In this document: piece by piece, positions 28,746 to 57,984 of the stretch
Layout: each line of letters opens with the position of its first letter
Position numbering within the stretch: position 1 is the first letter of the stretch
Virus record (IMG/VR): IMGVR_UViG_3300025012_000031
Span: 1-64,000 of that record
DNA: 64,000 bases
Direction: 5' to 3' (one strand)
Origin: a virus
Translations under genes and position numbers: made by a program
The notes under the pieces: model-generated
The model's input: the letters and a program-made list of their open reading frames with translations, nothing else
What the model was told of the DNA's origin: nothing
The model's database searches: none

Positions 28746-28937
28746 CTAGTGAAGGGTTAAAAGTTTATCGGTACACTCTGTTTCAAGTACCCAACCAAGA
28801 CGTTGAAATGTGTCGCGAACATCCGTTTCGTTCATCACACCTCTATATTCAATTAACACCGAGAGTTTACCTTCATCTGTTAACTCGGCGGTGATTGATC
28901 GCCCAACTTTATCTTTGAGGCCAAAAATCATCTTCAT
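28746..28937 (-). CDS. Hypothetical protein (63 aa)
   Basis: Begins MKMIFGLKDKVGRS and looks like a small alpha/beta domain. ATGA-type overlap with the stop of the topoisomerase C-terminal gene. No family recognised. Confidence 0.55.
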   Translation of the reverse strand: MKMIFGLKDKVGRSITAELTDEGKLSVLIEYRGVMNETDVRDTFQRLGWVLETECTDKLLTLH

Positions 28938-30211
28938 TTTATTTCCTTGAGATCGTCTTCCCAGAATTGACCAGGAGACGTATCGGCAACTACTTTATAT
29001 TCTTCAGAATGCTCAAGCCACTTTTTCTTTAATTCAGACATCGTATCTTCTGATAGAGAGTGCAGTGGCATGTTGATGAGATAAGCGTATGATCCTTCTA
29101 CCTCGTCATATCCCCGAGCTTGGATCTGTGTAATGATTTCGTCTTTCCTGCGGCGTTCGAGGATGATCGCCTTATCAAGAACGTCACCGATGAATTGATA
29201 CTTTGCTTGGGCAACTGTAATCTGATTCGTAAGTTTATCAAGAATTGAGTCTTTACGGAGCTGATAATACCGAAGACGAATTTTGCAATAGTCTTCAAGA
29301 ATCTCAATATCAGACTTGAACTCGCGGACCATGTTGTTCTCGTCAAGACATGTGAAGTTCTCTGTTACTCGTTTGATGAGTTTGAGATCATTGAGCACGA
29401 TCTCTTTATCACGATCAATGAATTCGCTTGTAACCTTAACGATGAATTCAAACTTACTATTTCCTGGATTAGAAAGGTCATCAAAATCCCGGATGACCTT
29501 TTTCTCTTCAAGTTCTGTCAACACTTTGACATACTTATCGAGGTCATATCCGATCGGTAGTTCTGTAATACGAAGTGTGGTCCGATTGACTTTCTCAAAG
29601 TCACCTTTAATCAACCAACGGTTCTTCTCTGCTTCGTATTCAATCACACCGTTAAAGCCCTTATAATAAGGAGCAATCCGTTGTGGCAATTTTCCATTCT
29701 TCAGATAATTACGAATGTGTTTGGTAACCTCCTTAGAATCGCGAGGAAGAATCTTCTGTGACCAACCAGAACCGATACCTTCTGAGCCGTTGATGAGAAT
29801 GAGTGGCAAGGTCGGAACAAAGAATCTCGGCTCAATGACATCTCCCTCGAAAACCTGCTCGGTGAGAAGCGGGATGTCATCCTTATTGAAAATTTGATTA
29901 AAGACAGGAGCCTTGTAGGTGAAGATGTAACGAGTTGCAGACGGGGCCGGTTTCAAACGAGAGCCGAACGTTCCATCGGGAATCATCAGCGTAATGTTAT
30001 TCGTTCCGACGAAATCTTGGGCCAATCCACAGATGACGCCACCGAGACTCTGCTCACCGTGTAAGTATTGTGTGCAATTGTGAACACAAATTCCAGATTT
30101 ACCAATAGGAAAATTATGATTTTTCTTCACATGAAGATCATATACGTCAATTGGTTTTTCTAACTTTATTCTTTTAATTGACTTTATTTTTATGCTTGCA
30201 TTTATCTCCAT
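28934..30211 (-). CDS. 52: C-intein plus C-terminal part of topoisomerase subunit gp52
   Basis: 425 aa. Residues 1-45 are the C-terminal half of an intein: block F IDVYDLHVKKNHNF and block G GICVHN, followed by Cys (+1). The C-extein starts CTQYLHGEQSLGG and continues with the type II topoisomerase breakage-reunion region: AQDFVGTNNITLMIP, GSRL and the catalytic Tyr in TRYIFT near residue 95. The N-terminal half is encoded at 31012-31482. Trans-splicing would join ...SKVAE to CTQY..., exactly the conserved AE-(Y/H)HGE region of the family. Own SD (GGGAG) overlaps the end of the homing endonuclease gene. Confidence 0.93.
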   Translation of the reverse strand: MEINASIKIKSIKRIKLEKPIDVYDLHVKKNHNFPIGKSGICVHNCTQYLHGEQSLGGVICGLAQDFVGTNNITLMIPDGTFGSRLKPAPSATRYIFTYKAPVFNQIFNKDDIPLLTEQVFEGDVIEPRFFVPTLPLILINGSEGIGSGWSQKILPRDSKEVTKHIRNYLKNGKLPQRIAPYYKGFNGVIEYEAEKNRWLIKGDFEKVNRTTLRITELPIGYDLDKYVKVLTELEEKKVIRDFDDLSNPGNSKFEFIVKVTSEFIDRDKEIVLNDLKLIKRVTENFTCLDENNMVREFKSDIEILEDYCKIRLRYYQLRKDSILDKLTNQITVAQAKYQFIGDVLDKAIILERRRKDEIITQIQARGYDEVEGSYAYLINMPLHSLSEDTMSELKKKWLEHSEEYKVVADTSPGQFWEDDLKEIK

Positions 30212-30959
30212 GCCATCTCCCGTAGTTACCTTTTGTTGTTATGAACCCACAATGTTCACAGGCCCAAATTTTTGCATTCATTATTGATAAACCATTCGCT
30301 GCTATTGTTTTTCTGGTGGTTTCGTCGCGGCCTTCCCATATATTCTTAACCATTGCATCTCTTTTACTATATGACAATTTTTCAGCATCAGTAAATTCTT
30401 TTTTGTTCATTCTTTGTTTATATTTTTTTCTACCATTCTTCCAATTATCATTACTTAAAATTTTTGTGTGGTCCCTACCGAATCTGTTTAACAGAATTAC
30501 ATATTCTCCACCACGGTTATGACGACCATCATAATCAAAATCATTCTCGTATTGAGTAAAAGATAAAGAATCTATTCTACGTTGAATTGGTGTGCTGTTT
30601 ATTTTGCGGCGAAGTCCGCTAAAAGATAACCAACAAAAACCGCGAAGTTTGTAGTGCACCCAGTCATAACTACCACCACAGTTGTTATTAATTTCTGGTT
30701 TTAACGATTTGATTAATCTCGTTTCATCTTTACCAGCCTCATACCTAGAATCATAATAACTGATTAGAGATATGGAAAAATCGTCATTCGAAAAACCATC
30801 TTCAAGATAAGGAATAAAACCAAGGGCGCCTCTTCTCGTCATATGTTCTTCAAATCTGTCAAATAATGTCTTCCCTCTTTTTAATACTATTCCAACATAA
30901 CGATCGCCTGTCTGTAAATGTGTAATTAAATACGAATGTGGTTTATCTTGTATCACCAT
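30174..30959 (-). CDS. GIY-YIG homing endonuclease inside the split intein
   Basis: 261 aa. SYLITHLQTGDRYVGI (residues 8-23) is a GIY-YIG variant, followed by RFEEH and an ETRLIKSLKPEINNNCGG segment carrying the catalytic Glu and Asn region. The C-terminus has a zinc-finger-like C..CGF...H..KC segment for DNA recognition. It lies between the two intein halves of the gp52 gene, so it is a free-standing homing gene in a fractured gene. Start and SD (GGAGG) are buried in the 30953-31000 hairpin. Confidence 0.9.
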   Translation of the reverse strand: MVIQDKPHSYLITHLQTGDRYVGIVLKRGKTLFDRFEEHMTRRGALGFIPYLEDGFSNDDFSISLISYYDSRYEAGKDETRLIKSLKPEINNNCGGSYDWVHYKLRGFCWLSFSGLRRKINSTPIQRRIDSLSFTQYENDFDYDGRHNRGGEYVILLNRFGRDHTKILSNDNWKNGRKKYKQRMNKKEFTDAEKLSYSKRDAMVKNIWEGRDETTRKTIAANGLSIMNAKIWACEHCGFITTKGNYGRWHGDKCKHKNKVN

Positions 30960-31000
30960 GAAGATACCTCCGTTTAAAGGTATTTATATCTTCATGGTGA
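30953..31000 (-). promoter_or_regulatory. Late promoter TATAAATA inside an RBS-masking hairpin
   Basis: Perfect 14-bp arms (30953-30966 and 30987-31000). The minus-strand order is arm, TATAAATA (30981-30988), SD GGAGG, arm containing the start ATG. Transcripts of the gp52 operon would hide the start; late transcripts beginning after TATAAATA lack the 5' arm. Same logic as T4 I-TevI. Confidence 0.85.
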
Positions 31001-31011
31001 AAAATCGTAAA

Positions 31012-31482
31012 TTACACTAACGAAACTATTTCATCGTCCGCTGTAAGAGCATCGGCCCGCTTCCAACCAGAAATCGTTCTTATCGGATGATTCGGCGTCA
31101 CCTTGAATGTTTCACCGTTCACCAACTCGATCTCAATAAATTCGTCGCTCTGTTTGGTAACAAATACATCCAAACATTCATCTAATTCCCACTGTTTAGA
31201 GTTTTCATTAAATGATTGAATATCAAAATTTTTACCAATCAATTCTTTGACGGTTATAAGTTCGCCTTCAATGTTAATCAGCGTATCTGGGTGTAGACAT
31301 TCAGCAACCTTAGACATCAACTGGCTGACTTTAATCGGTGAAGTAATATTGTTCCGCAGTACCGTATGGATCACCTTTCTGGAGGAAGGTTTTAGGCCAT
31401 CTACATAACAAGCAACTGACCGATAAAGATCATACTGTGAAAACTGAGAATGTTCATTTGTAAAGAAGTCGGTGATTTTCAA
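31012..31482 (-). CDS. 52: N-terminal part of topoisomerase gp52 plus N-intein
   Basis: 156 aa. The start codon is TTG (SD GGGAG 7 bases upstream). Residues 1-64 are the gp52/GyrA-type N-terminus (VDGLKPSSRKVIHTVL). Intein block A CLHPDTLI follows SKVAE directly, and block B is GETFKVTPNHPIRTISGW. The frame ends after DDEIVSLV, so it is only the N-half of an intein. The catalytic Tyr is in the other fragment, so neither half is active alone. Confidence 0.93.
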   Translation of the reverse strand: MKITDFFTNEHSQFSQYDLYRSVACYVDGLKPSSRKVIHTVLRNNITSPIKVSQLMSKVAECLHPDTLINIEGELITVKELIGKNFDIQSFNENSKQWELDECLDVFVTKQSDEFIEIELVNGETFKVTPNHPIRTISGWKRADALTADDEIVSLV

Positions 31483-31485
31483 ACG

Positions 31486-31695
31486 TTAACTCCCAAAATA
31501 CAATTTATAGAGTAAAACAAGCACAATGACATCGAGCACCTCAATGATGAAGATACAAAACGCCATCATTCCCACGAAACCCCATCCGTCGTTCGATCTT
31601 TCCCCGCCGATATCAAATGCATATCGAAACGGTAGTGTCATCATGTCAATCAGAAAAGAAAAGAATTCCTTTACCGCTTTAAGTTTTTGTTTCAT
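31486..31695 (-). CDS. Small membrane protein (69 aa)
   Basis: SD AAGGAGAAC. An amphipathic N-terminus, then one strong TM segment at about residues 41-64 (VGMMAFCIFIIEVLDVIVLVLL). Lies 3 bases before the split gp52 gene. Function unknown. Confidence 0.6.
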   Translation of the reverse strand: MKQKLKAVKEFFSFLIDMMTLPFRYAFDIGGERSNDGWGFVGMMAFCIFIIEVLDVIVLVLLYKLYFGS

Positions 31696-31704
31696 GTGTT
31701 CTCC

Positions 31705-32596: not shown

Positions 32597-34474
32597 TTAC
32601 ATTGCGTCGATAACGAAGGCATTTCCTCTGAGTACTTTCTTCCTCTCATCGACGGTCGTAGCGCTTAACCAATTCTTTATTGATGTAGCAGCATCATCAT
32701 CAAACTCAAAGTCCTGGATGAAATGGTCAATGCCTTCGCGGACAATCAACTCCTTCAATTCTGGTCCACGGAAGCTACCCAACCCTTTATAGTACTTGAT
32801 TTCAAAGCCGTTCGTGGAGTTCTTTGATAGCCAATCATTATATGCATTGAAGTCAAAGAAGTAGTGAACGATCTTGTCTTTCTTTTTAAGGGCAATGAGG
32901 GGCGTTCGCATGTACTTGATGCGGTTAGACTTGACGAGGGAAGGAGAGAAGCGATGGAAGAAACCTAGAAGCAGCGAACGAATGTGTATACCGTCTGCAT
33001 CTTGGTCGGTGGTGAGGAGAACATTTTGATAACGAAGTTCGTCTTGTTTATCTTTGACTAGATTTAGGTTAAGGATATCACGAATAGATTTGATTTCGTC
33101 ATTCTCAACGATCTTCCTTGTCGCCGCCTCAAAGGCATTGAGGGGTTTACCTTTGAGAGGAAAGAATCCAAACTGTTCCCGACCAAGTACGGCGGAGATA
33201 CCACCAACGGCCGAATCACCTTCAGCAAGAACGAGATACTTATGTTCCTTTGTTGCTGGAAGATATTTCTCAACGCGGATTTTCTTTGTCGTCTTGCTTG
33301 CGTTCTTCAGTGCAAGATTTTCTTTGACCTGTTCTTTCAGCTTATATGTCTCGACGATCGGATCAATGATATCTGCATTCCGACAGATGGCACCGAGGAA
33401 TTTATCATTAAGAACTTCCTCAATGATATCTTTAAAATCGGTGACGCTATTCATCAACTCTTCTTTTGTCTGACCGTTGAATCTTGCTCCAGGCATCCTC
33501 ATTGAGAACATGATGAACAACTTACTTTTGATGTCGGCGGGCTTGACGTCAAGCTTATGTTTTCTTTTGATGAACTCCCGAATGTTATCGCATATCTTCC
33601 ATGAAAGGTAATCAATATGCGATCCACCCCGCCGTGTCTCTAAGCCGTTGACGAATGATAGATGATCAAAGTCGGTGTCTGAATAGAAAACGCCGATCCT
33701 AGCCTTCTGACCTTCGAAGTATTCAAAGTTTTCGCTGATTCCCTGAAGGAAGATTTTCAGCCGAGTGGCGGTGATCTTCTTCCCATTGAATTTGAAGCAA
33801 ATCTCTGGATAACAGAAGGCGGAGTTCTTGAGATAGCGGAAGATCAATTGTGGCAAGATGTTCATTCCGTCTTGACTGATCTTAAAGTAATCATAGTTCG
33901 GTTCAAACGAAATCTCGGTGAAATTCTCTGTTGATTTTCTGACGGTCGGTTTTTCTTTGACCATCGTAGAGTTCCGATATGTCTGTTCATAGAACAGTGC
34001 GCCGTTGGCCGTCCGAACCCTGAACCACTTGGAGAAGATGTTTGTGAGTGATACACCGACACCATTCTGGCCCTTCTGTTCTTCGAGCTTATCATCGTCG
34101 AAATTTGAACCGGAACGCAGCTTGGTAAAGATGATTTCTGGAATCCACTTATCATCCCCATTTTTCTCGATCGGTAATCCACGACCATCATCTCTTACCG
34201 TGATAATGCCGTTGTCATACTTGACTTCGATTGTCGTGCCGTACTTAAAACCCGTCTTGATACTTTCATCAATGCAGTTATCAATGACTTCTTCAATGAT
34301 CTTTTGGAGCCCGGGAAGGAATGCTGTTTCACGGATGACCATCTTGTCATCTTCATACATCCTGATAGGAACTACCGACTCTTTAACGGAACCGATGTAA
34401 ATACCCGGACGCTTGATAACATGTTCAACGTCTGTTAGTTCTACGATGTCATTCTTTCTTAATGGTGCTGTCAT
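32597..34474 (-). CDS. 39: Type II topoisomerase ATPase/TOPRIM subunit (T4 gp39 type)
   Basis: 625 aa. GHKL ATPase motifs: EVIDNCIDE near residue 63, DDGRGLP near 118 and GQNGVGVSLTN near 163. The TOPRIM motif is LAEGDSAVGG near 418 with PLKGKPLN, and TDQDADGIHIRSLL near 490 binds the metal. In T4 this protein is split between genes 39 and 60; here it is one chain. It works with the split gp52 subunit. Own promoter at 34533. Confidence 0.95.
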   Translation of the reverse strand: MTAPLRKNDIVELTDVEHVIKRPGIYIGSVKESVVPIRMYEDDKMVIRETAFLPGLQKIIEEVIDNCIDESIKTGFKYGTTIEVKYDNGIITVRDDGRGLPIEKNGDDKWIPEIIFTKLRSGSNFDDDKLEEQKGQNGVGVSLTNIFSKWFRVRTANGALFYEQTYRNSTMVKEKPTVRKSTENFTEISFEPNYDYFKISQDGMNILPQLIFRYLKNSAFCYPEICFKFNGKKITATRLKIFLQGISENFEYFEGQKARIGVFYSDTDFDHLSFVNGLETRRGGSHIDYLSWKICDNIREFIKRKHKLDVKPADIKSKLFIMFSMRMPGARFNGQTKEELMNSVTDFKDIIEEVLNDKFLGAICRNADIIDPIVETYKLKEQVKENLALKNASKTTKKIRVEKYLPATKEHKYLVLAEGDSAVGGISAVLGREQFGFFPLKGKPLNAFEAATRKIVENDEIKSIRDILNLNLVKDKQDELRYQNVLLTTDQDADGIHIRSLLLGFFHRFSPSLVKSNRIKYMRTPLIALKKKDKIVHYFFDFNAYNDWLSKNSTNGFEIKYYKGLGSFRGPELKELIVREGIDHFIQDFEFDDDAATSIKNWLSATTVDERKKVLRGNAFVIDAM

Positions 34475-51421: not shown

Positions 51422-51496
51422 TGGTGCCCGGTATGGGAATCGAACCCATCTTGCCGGATTTAGAGTCCGGTGGCTCAACCGATCACCCAACCGGGC
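51422..51496 (-). tRNA. tRNA-Arg (TCT)
   Basis: Acceptor GCCCGGT pairs with ACCGGGC; anticodon stem CCGGA/TCCGG with loop CTCTAAA, anticodon TCT; T-arm ATGGG-TTCGATT-CCCAT; CCA encoded. Stands alone, 8 kb from the main cluster. AGA codons are often rare in hosts, fitting a codon-supply role. Confidence 0.92.
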
Positions 51497-57216: not shown

Positions 57217-57984
57217 TTATTGATTATAGTGATAAACCGTCCACCCGTTGCACCATTTGTCTTTTCTTTTATTACATGCAATCAATCTCATCGATTTATG
57301 ACTTAAATTATTATCAATACAGAATTTTCTAAATGCGCCGATAATAATAACTTCTTCGTTGTTCCTATTTTTAAAAACCCATTTTTTTGCTGATGGGTTT
57401 TTTTCACCAGTCATACTTAAAGAAACTCTTTGTTTTACATCGTCCCTTTTCAGAGGATTATTAGTTTTCATTAGGATTGATCGCCGTGTTCGTTCTTCGT
57501 CAGATATATTTGTTCTGTCTATGATTCCGGCGCAAATCAATTCCTTCATTTTGATAGATATCCGTGACTTCGATTCAGTAGTATGAAATGATTTTCCTTC
57601 TTTTGAATTGCTTATATTTTTCAGTGTTTCTTCTGTGTGTTTCTTTCCGAAGAACGGATTTCCATTTCCCATATATTTCAAAGATCGTCTTTTACGACTT
57701 TCTTCTGATATGAGTGTATTCCCACCTTCACCACCGTTTGTTAAATTATAACCGATGTTTTTATTATTTGCTTTTAACTTATCAATCCAAAAAATTTCTC
57801 TTTCGTTTAATTCTTTTTTTGATTCACATTTTTCTAAAGTTTCTTTATGAAAATTATCAGTGCCGTATTTTAATACCAATTTAGAAATAATAATACCGGA
57901 ACCGAAGTATCCTGGCCTATCAAGCGAATCTTGGCCTACATAAATTTTACCATTTCTTTTATCTGTTATTTTATAAATTATCAT
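57217..57984 (-). CDS. GIY-YIG homing endonuclease
   Basis: 255 aa. IIYKITDKRNGKIYVGQDS (residues 2-20) is a canonical GIY-YIG core, then NUMOD-type repeats (GNPFFGKKHTEETLKNIS) and a final CNGWTVYHYNQ. Inserted directly before the RlmN-like gene. SD GAGGAGGAC and the ATG are in one arm of the 57983-58030 hairpin. Confidence 0.93.
   Translation of the reverse strand: MIIYKITDKRNGKIYVGQDSLDRPGYFGSGIIISKLVLKYGTDNFHKETLEKCESKKELNEREIFWIDKLKANNKNIGYNLTNGGEGGNTLISEESRKRRSLKYMGNGNPFFGKKHTEETLKNISNSKEGKSFHTTESKSRISIKMKELICAGIIDRTNISDEERTRRSILMKTNNPLKRDDVKQRVSLSMTGEKNPSAKKWVFKNRNNEEVIIIGAFRKFCIDNNLSHKSMRLIACNKRKDKWCNGWTVYHYNQ

Follow-up and report, generated by a model that had tools for sequence, protein, structure and literature searches.

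The analysis of a 64,000-nucleotide stretch of viral DNA, positions 1 to 64,000 of IMG/VR record IMGVR_UViG_3300025012_000031 and called the window below, revealed a gp52-type topoisomerase subunit encoded in two separate genes, with a putative homing endonuclease gene lying between them. The locus consists of three open reading frames (ORFs), all on the minus strand: 31012-31482 (TTG start, 156 amino acids), 30174-30959 (261 amino acids) and 28934-30211 (425 amino acids). In the order of minus-strand transcription, the gene of the gp39-type subunit (34474-32597) and some small ORFs are followed by the N-half of gp52 (31482-31012), the endonuclease gene (30959-30174) and the C-half of gp52 (30211-28934). 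An earlier note made from the sequence alone had read the first gene as ending with an N-intein (blocks A and B) and the second as opening with a C-intein (blocks F and G, HN and then Cys). Profile searches bore out this reading for the enzyme parts and for both intein parts.

The N-half has a likely ribosome binding site, GGGAG, at 31490-31494 and begins with the first 61 residues of the topoisomerase subunit (N-extein, 31300-31482), which end in SKVAE. Its residues 1-65 match the topoisomerase II family phrog_551 (E = 1e-12). The N-extein continues into an N-intein of 95 residues (31012-31299) that stops at a TAA codon. The C-half starts with a C-intein of 45 residues (30077-30211), the first 38 nucleotides of which overlap the end of the endonuclease gene; its own likely ribosome binding site, also GGGAG, is located within the 3′ end of that gene (30217-30221). 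The C-extein (28934-30076) comprises 380 gp52 residues from CTQYLHGE to a TGA stop, and the C-half beyond the C-intein matches PF00521 (E = 3.5e-62) and phrog_551 (E = 1e-102). The breakage-reunion domain, the catalytic tyrosine motif RYIFT and the Y-x-H-G motif (YLHGE) are all conserved, which identifies the protein as gp52-type. The partner subunit, with ATPase, gyraseB and TOPRIM profile matches, is encoded by an intact gene of 625 codons for amino acids (32597-34474).

Both intein parts scored above the family cut-offs: residues 62-136 of the N-half match TIGR01445 (intein_Nterm; E = 6e-11, 43.2 bits, cut-off 24.5) and residues 22-46 of the C-half match TIGR01443 (intein_Cterm; E = 4e-6, 26.8 bits, cut-off 15.6). 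Every feature of a class-1 intein was found, namely Cys1 (in CLHPDTLI), block B with TPNH, block F (PIDVYDLHV..NHNF), block G ending in VHN, and a cysteine at position +1. The intein is divided downstream of block B, and so are the natural split inteins with which it was compared. The N-intein resembles inteins of solved structure (a DnaB intein, E = 2e-8; NrdJ-1, E = 2e-6), and among the matches listed for the two halves in isolates were helicase, UvsX, terminase and ribonucleotide reductase genes. The content of guanine plus cytosine (GC) is 25.9% in the C-intein and 39-43% in the exteins. Judged by these features, a canonical class-1 split intein interrupts the gp52 gene.

The earlier note had named an intact gp52 gene elsewhere in the genome as one finding that could overturn its reading. 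In a search of the whole 155,098-bp record the two fragments were the sole gp52-type sequences, so the record holds no intact copy. The stop codons of the N-half, the endonuclease gene and the C-half are TAA, TAA and TGA, respectively, and read-through of TAG therefore cannot join the gp52 pieces. Recoding of stop codons was rejected as the cause of the break in the window, where TAG still terminates the DNA polymerase ORF. As a separate observation, positions 51422-51496 of the window encode a transfer RNA with a CUA anticodon, called Pyl by ARAGORN and of the amber-suppressor type; TAG nonetheless ends several ORFs, that of DNA polymerase included. A group I intron was also rejected as the interruption: an Rfam scan of 28800-31700 gave no match to a self-splicing RNA. 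Predicted sigma-70 promoters and terminators near the genes showed no excess over shuffled sequence.

Exact junction of the two exteins

To compare the site of interruption we used gp52 loci fetched from IMG/VR through the family alignment (80 loci, the best 80 of 419). The junction position was readable in 85 loci, 79 of this set and six fetched earlier. The site homologous to SKVAE/CTQYLHGE was uninterrupted and free of gaps in 84 of the 85, for example as SKVAE/YTEYLHGD in Vibrio phage Va1. The remaining one, contig L066, is interrupted at the junction position by an intein of its own, and none of the 79 further loci is interrupted. The residue at position +1 in the uninterrupted homologues is mostly Tyr, Phe, Glu or another residue; cysteine occurs there in a single one of the 84 phage genes (L097, SSVAE/CTEYLHGE) and likewise in yeast Top2 (CTAYHHGE). 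Joining of the predicted exteins gives the peptide SKVAECTQYLHGE and, on this alignment, rebuilds the conserved gp52 sequence exactly, including the cysteine required for splicing.

The earlier note was thus right that the junction restores a conserved region of the topoisomerase, and wrong in placing it just before the catalytic tyrosine. The insertion site is three residues ahead of the Y-x-H-G motif, and the predicted catalytic tyrosine (codon 29927-29929, in RYIFT; ARYIYT in yeast) aligns 49 residues past the +1 cysteine.

A search of 50,697 phage records, with the gp52 C-extein matching 1,934 of them, gave no gp52 intein among the matches listed, and a split intein in the topoisomerase of a sequenced isolate was not found. 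No close relatives of the N-half were found among viral contigs. The pattern HNC..Y.HG[DE], searched at the DNA level, gave eight matches, one of them genuine (L066) and seven due to chance.

The endonuclease gene and its hairpin

The gene between the halves (30174-30959, 34.2% GC against 41.8% for the window) encodes a putative free-standing homing endonuclease of 261 residues. Its predicted GIY-YIG nuclease domain covers residues 9-96 (30672-30935), with Y10, Y21-V-G, R35, E79 and N91 as the key residues; Y10, Y21, G23, E79 and N91 fall in invariant columns when aligned with clear GIY-YIG proteins, and R35 was read from the sequence. A protein of Synechococcus phage MA01 is similar to this domain (pairwise E = 3e-7) and itself lies above the cut-off of the GIY-YIG family PF01541 (E = 4e-7). 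Because this homologue bridges the two, the GIY-YIG assignment made in the earlier note is supported. A comparison of a small GIY-YIG alignment with the endonuclease by hhalign was weak (E = 0.033), an AlphaFold model made without an alignment reached a predicted local distance difference test (pLDDT) score of 32 and was not used, and no close relatives of the nuclease domain were found among viral contigs. At its C-terminus the protein carries a Cys/His finger, CEHCG..RWHGDKCKHK (30189-30266). Among phage homing endonucleases this finger (CxxCG..RWHGDKCKHK) is an interchangeable module, present at the C-terminus of HNH and GIY-YIG enzymes alike (L009-L037, L149, L150); in those proteins that were scanned against Pfam, no family clearly matched it.

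The start of the endonuclease gene is predicted to be enclosed in an RNA hairpin (30953-31000; -23.4 kcal/mol, z = -6.7), which hides both the ribosome binding site GGAGG (30967-30971) and the AUG. Its 5′ arm contains a T4-type late-promoter box, TATAAATA (30981-30988), 29 nucleotides ahead of the start codon. The late-type control that the earlier note had proposed is borne out at the level of sequence, and extends beyond a promoter. No hairpin is present at the starts of the N-half, the C-half or the gp39-type gene (z about 0).

Occurrences of TATAAATA were counted in the window and the fetched stretches. The window has seven such sites on its two strands, and five of the seven (22479, 30981, 53281, 56379 and 58006) stand 29-37 nucleotides before the starts of homing endonuclease genes, so that five of the six homing endonuclease genes in the window are preceded by the box; others precede endonuclease genes in L053 and L052. 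The window has three further endonuclease-start hairpins, at 57984 (z = -10.9), 53257 (an HNH gene, z = -8.5) and 56356 (z = -3.6); another is located beyond its limits, at a GIY-YIG gene (z = -6.1). No hairpin is present at the endonuclease starts 22516 and 1136. In this phage the boxes precede endonuclease genes of different nuclease families, and most of them lie in a hairpin that masks the ribosome binding site. The arrangement is like that of I-TevI, SegB and MobE of phage Aeh1, in which early transcripts are silenced by a hairpin that hides the ribosome binding site, and late transcripts, starting inside the hairpin, lose it (PMC2988022). It differs in its setting, as I-TevI is located in a group I intron, and SegB and MobE are free-standing and have no intein.

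Related ARRANGEMENTS: fractured genes of the same kind

A second gene of this phage, that of the class II ribonucleotide reductase NrdJ, is fractured as well. It spans record positions 145,621-149,439 (ORFs 145621-146835, 146885-147640 and 147610-149439, within the stretch 143000-152000 designated L052), and here too a split intein surrounds an endonuclease-like gene. The latter is of another type than the GIY-YIG gene in gp52, and is preceded by a hairpin (z = -8.3) that contains TATAAATA.

Fractured genes were reportedly described by Dassa and colleagues in 2009, together with the split inteins gp41-1, NrdJ-1, IMPDH-1 and others. The intein, extein and layout data support the assignment of the locus to this kind, as the earlier note had proposed: a phage enzyme gene is broken by a split intein and a free-standing endonuclease gene lies between the halves. 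The difference is that the host gene here is a type II topoisomerase gp52.

Two arrangements in isolated phages are close in layout. In nrdA of Klebsiella phage KP13-7 (OP617745) the N-intein is followed by a GIY-YIG gene (PF01541, E = 4e-7) that overlaps the start of the C-intein, and then by the C-half; the start of the endonuclease gene lies directly after a strong hairpin. The host gene is however a ribonucleotide reductase, and the intein halves are 32% and 50% identical to those of the window. (Beyond the C-intein this phage has what may be another intein, and an ORF of HNH type by resemblance; the pieces are mostly annotated as hypothetical proteins.) The uvsW genes of Salmonella phage STP4-a/S16 and Proteus phage PM2 (L038, L039) show the same gene order and overlaps, with intein halves 36-58% identical, but their endonuclease is not of the GIY-YIG type (NUMOD3 and a TnsA-like nuclease region) and its start has neither hairpin nor late box. 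Some pieces of the fractured uvsW and nrdA genes in isolates bear the annotation hypothetical protein. A type IIA topoisomerase is interrupted in its breakage-reunion subunit by bacterial GyrA inteins (NCBIfam NF038098) as well; these, by contrast, are contiguous and splice in cis, and the C-half of the window matches NF038098 in its extein part only.

In L066, a 33-kb IMG/VR record (IMGVR_UViG_3300035180_002231), gp52 is broken at exactly the same position by a homologous split intein. Its gp52 N-intein was the closest one found (identity 44% for the N-part and 48% for the C-part), and the two inteins have in common an IG-x-S insertion before the final HN. Unlike the window, L066 has no endonuclease gene between the gp52 halves: the N-half ends at TAA and the C-half follows in another frame about 50 nucleotides on. 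Because the two open frames overlap by 32 nucleotides, the L066 intein could instead be a single contiguous cis-splicing mini-intein with a frameshift error. The gp39 gene of L066 is fractured as well, by a split intein at the TOPRIM site EGD/S with an endonuclease-like ORF between the halves, whereas the gp39-type subunit of the window is intact.

In phage topoisomerase II, split inteins were also seen at two sites within TOPRIM, in at least six further contigs. At DAD/C these were found in L003 (also L005 and L131), L004 (also L133) and L129, and C-intein halves at a site matching EGD/S in L089, L095 and L135. The content of the gap varies: in L003 the halves flank a GIY-YIG-like ORF (PF01541, E = 0.002, for a trimmed stretch), in L004 they are about 3.6 kb apart and several ORFs, one of them methylase-like, lie between them, and L129 is a clean split without endonuclease, its gap of about 66 nucleotides containing several stops. 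We regard it as a speculative and rather improbable idea that type II topoisomerase is a recurrent home of split inteins in large environmental phages (at the Y-x-H-G, EGD/S and DAD/C sites) and that, with at least some splits remaining where an endonuclease was lost or never present, the split is kept for its own sake, for example to delay or control the assembly of active topoisomerase, and is not merely a scar of homing.

Proposed trans-splicing and homing, and the alternatives

Overall, the data are best explained if the gp52 gene is fractured by a class-1 split intein and its product is spliced in trans, with the GIY-YIG gene as the homing partner under hairpin and late-promoter control. 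We put the probability of this at roughly 0.86, judged from sequence features. The reading is favoured because the intein and enzyme profiles match both halves, the junction is free of gaps and gp52 is single in the record; because L066 has an intein at the same site, the isolate uvsW and nrdA genes have the same architecture and NrdJ is fractured in the same phage; and because the hairpin and late box resemble those of I-TevI, SegB and MobE and both the endonuclease gene and the C-intein are low in GC.

According to this proposal, one transcript would carry both halves, each translated from a ribosome binding site of its own. The N- and C-half precursors would then bind each other by their intein parts and be trans-spliced by way of Cys1, then Cys+1 and finally cyclisation of the asparagine. 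The product would be a single gp52 chain of 441 residues that pairs with the gp39-type subunit. On early and middle read-through transcripts the hairpin would block translation of the endonuclease while the two halves are still made. Late transcripts would start inside the hairpin, and because they lack its 5′ arm the endonuclease could be translated from them. The endonuclease would then cleave gp52 alleles that lack the intein, in co-infecting phages and close to the site of insertion, and the whole element (N-intein, endonuclease gene and C-intein) would be copied into the cut allele.

Several points weigh against this reading. The sequence itself shows the three ORFs with their intein and enzyme domains, the exact junction, the splicing residues, the single gp52 and the hairpin with its late box, while trans-splicing and cleavage by the endonuclease are predicted from sequence anatomy and precedent. 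As a linear record, the sequence may not cover the whole genome. The endonuclease stays below the curated cut-off of PF01541 (E = 0.013 in the genome search and 0.083 for the domain alone; 13 bits against 22.6). Among the sequences compared there was no close relative with an empty site, and the homing target is accordingly a presumed one.

Alternatively, the GIY-YIG gene could be no homing partner of this intein but one of many free-standing endonuclease genes of the phage that landed in an already split intein, its product cutting elsewhere or nowhere. The genome carries six GIY-YIG domains, free-standing endonucleases of T4 can cut far from their own genes (PMC2988022), and related topoisomerases have split inteins without an endonuclease at the same gp52 site (L066) and at a TOPRIM site (L129). 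However, the gene lies exactly between the intein halves and overlaps the C-intein, the same layout recurs in other genes with other nuclease types, and its catalytic residues are conserved. We consider such a chance neighbour possible but on balance unlikely.

A further explanation does away with splicing altogether: the halves would form an active enzyme by non-covalent association, with the intein parts either passive or serving as dimerisation tags. Enzymes made from genes in pieces are known in NrdA of Aeh1 (split by mobE), the polymerase 43A/43B of phage 25 and the T4 topoisomerase gp39/gp60 (PMC2988022). None of these precedents has intein sequence. In the window, by contrast, neither half has lost any of its class-1 catalytic residues, and the two exteins abut precisely where homologues are continuous, with a +1 cysteine that is rare there. 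Function without splicing is on these grounds very unlikely. The earlier note had supposed that the topoisomerase would depend on trans-splicing; such dependence is a possible consequence, given that enzymes encoded in pieces can function without it.

That the locus is an artefact of assembly or sequencing, or that both gene and element are dead and decaying, is hardly credible: the contig is metagenomic, but all three ORFs are open, neither the ribosome binding sites nor the hairpin are missing, and L066 shows the arrangement independently. A second, independent contig, L002 (IMGVR_UViG_3300024999_000996), has the same sequence as the window throughout a stretch of 7,075 bp that includes part of the C-half and its surroundings. 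It ends inside the C-half, 66 nucleotides downstream of the splice junction, so the insertion is spanned by no second assembly; the break at this place may reflect mixed alleles or chance.

The fractured-gene kind has been known since 2009, and the split-intein device is known from other phage genes. Our literature search for topoisomerases with split inteins, in which coverage of subscription journals and of the gene list of Dassa and colleagues was incomplete, found no description of gp52 as host or of its site, of an allele without endonuclease at the same site, of repeated cases in phage topoisomerases, or of hairpin control shared across endonuclease families in one genome. Of what the earlier note had called unusual, the topoisomerase host therefore stands, and a GIY-YIG gene within a split intein does not, given KP13-7 nrdA and the GIY-YIG-like ORF of L003.

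With this locus a replication-type DNA topoisomerase joins the genes that phages carry in fractured form, and a new natural split intein pair (95 and 45 residues) with a known native junction becomes available. The window and L066 provide site-matched alleles with and without an endonuclease, with which one can ask how endonucleases enter and leave inteins. Finally, the hairpin and late-promoter control shared by endonuclease genes of this phage, those in both fractured genes included, offers a test of whether such control permits selfish genes inside important genes.

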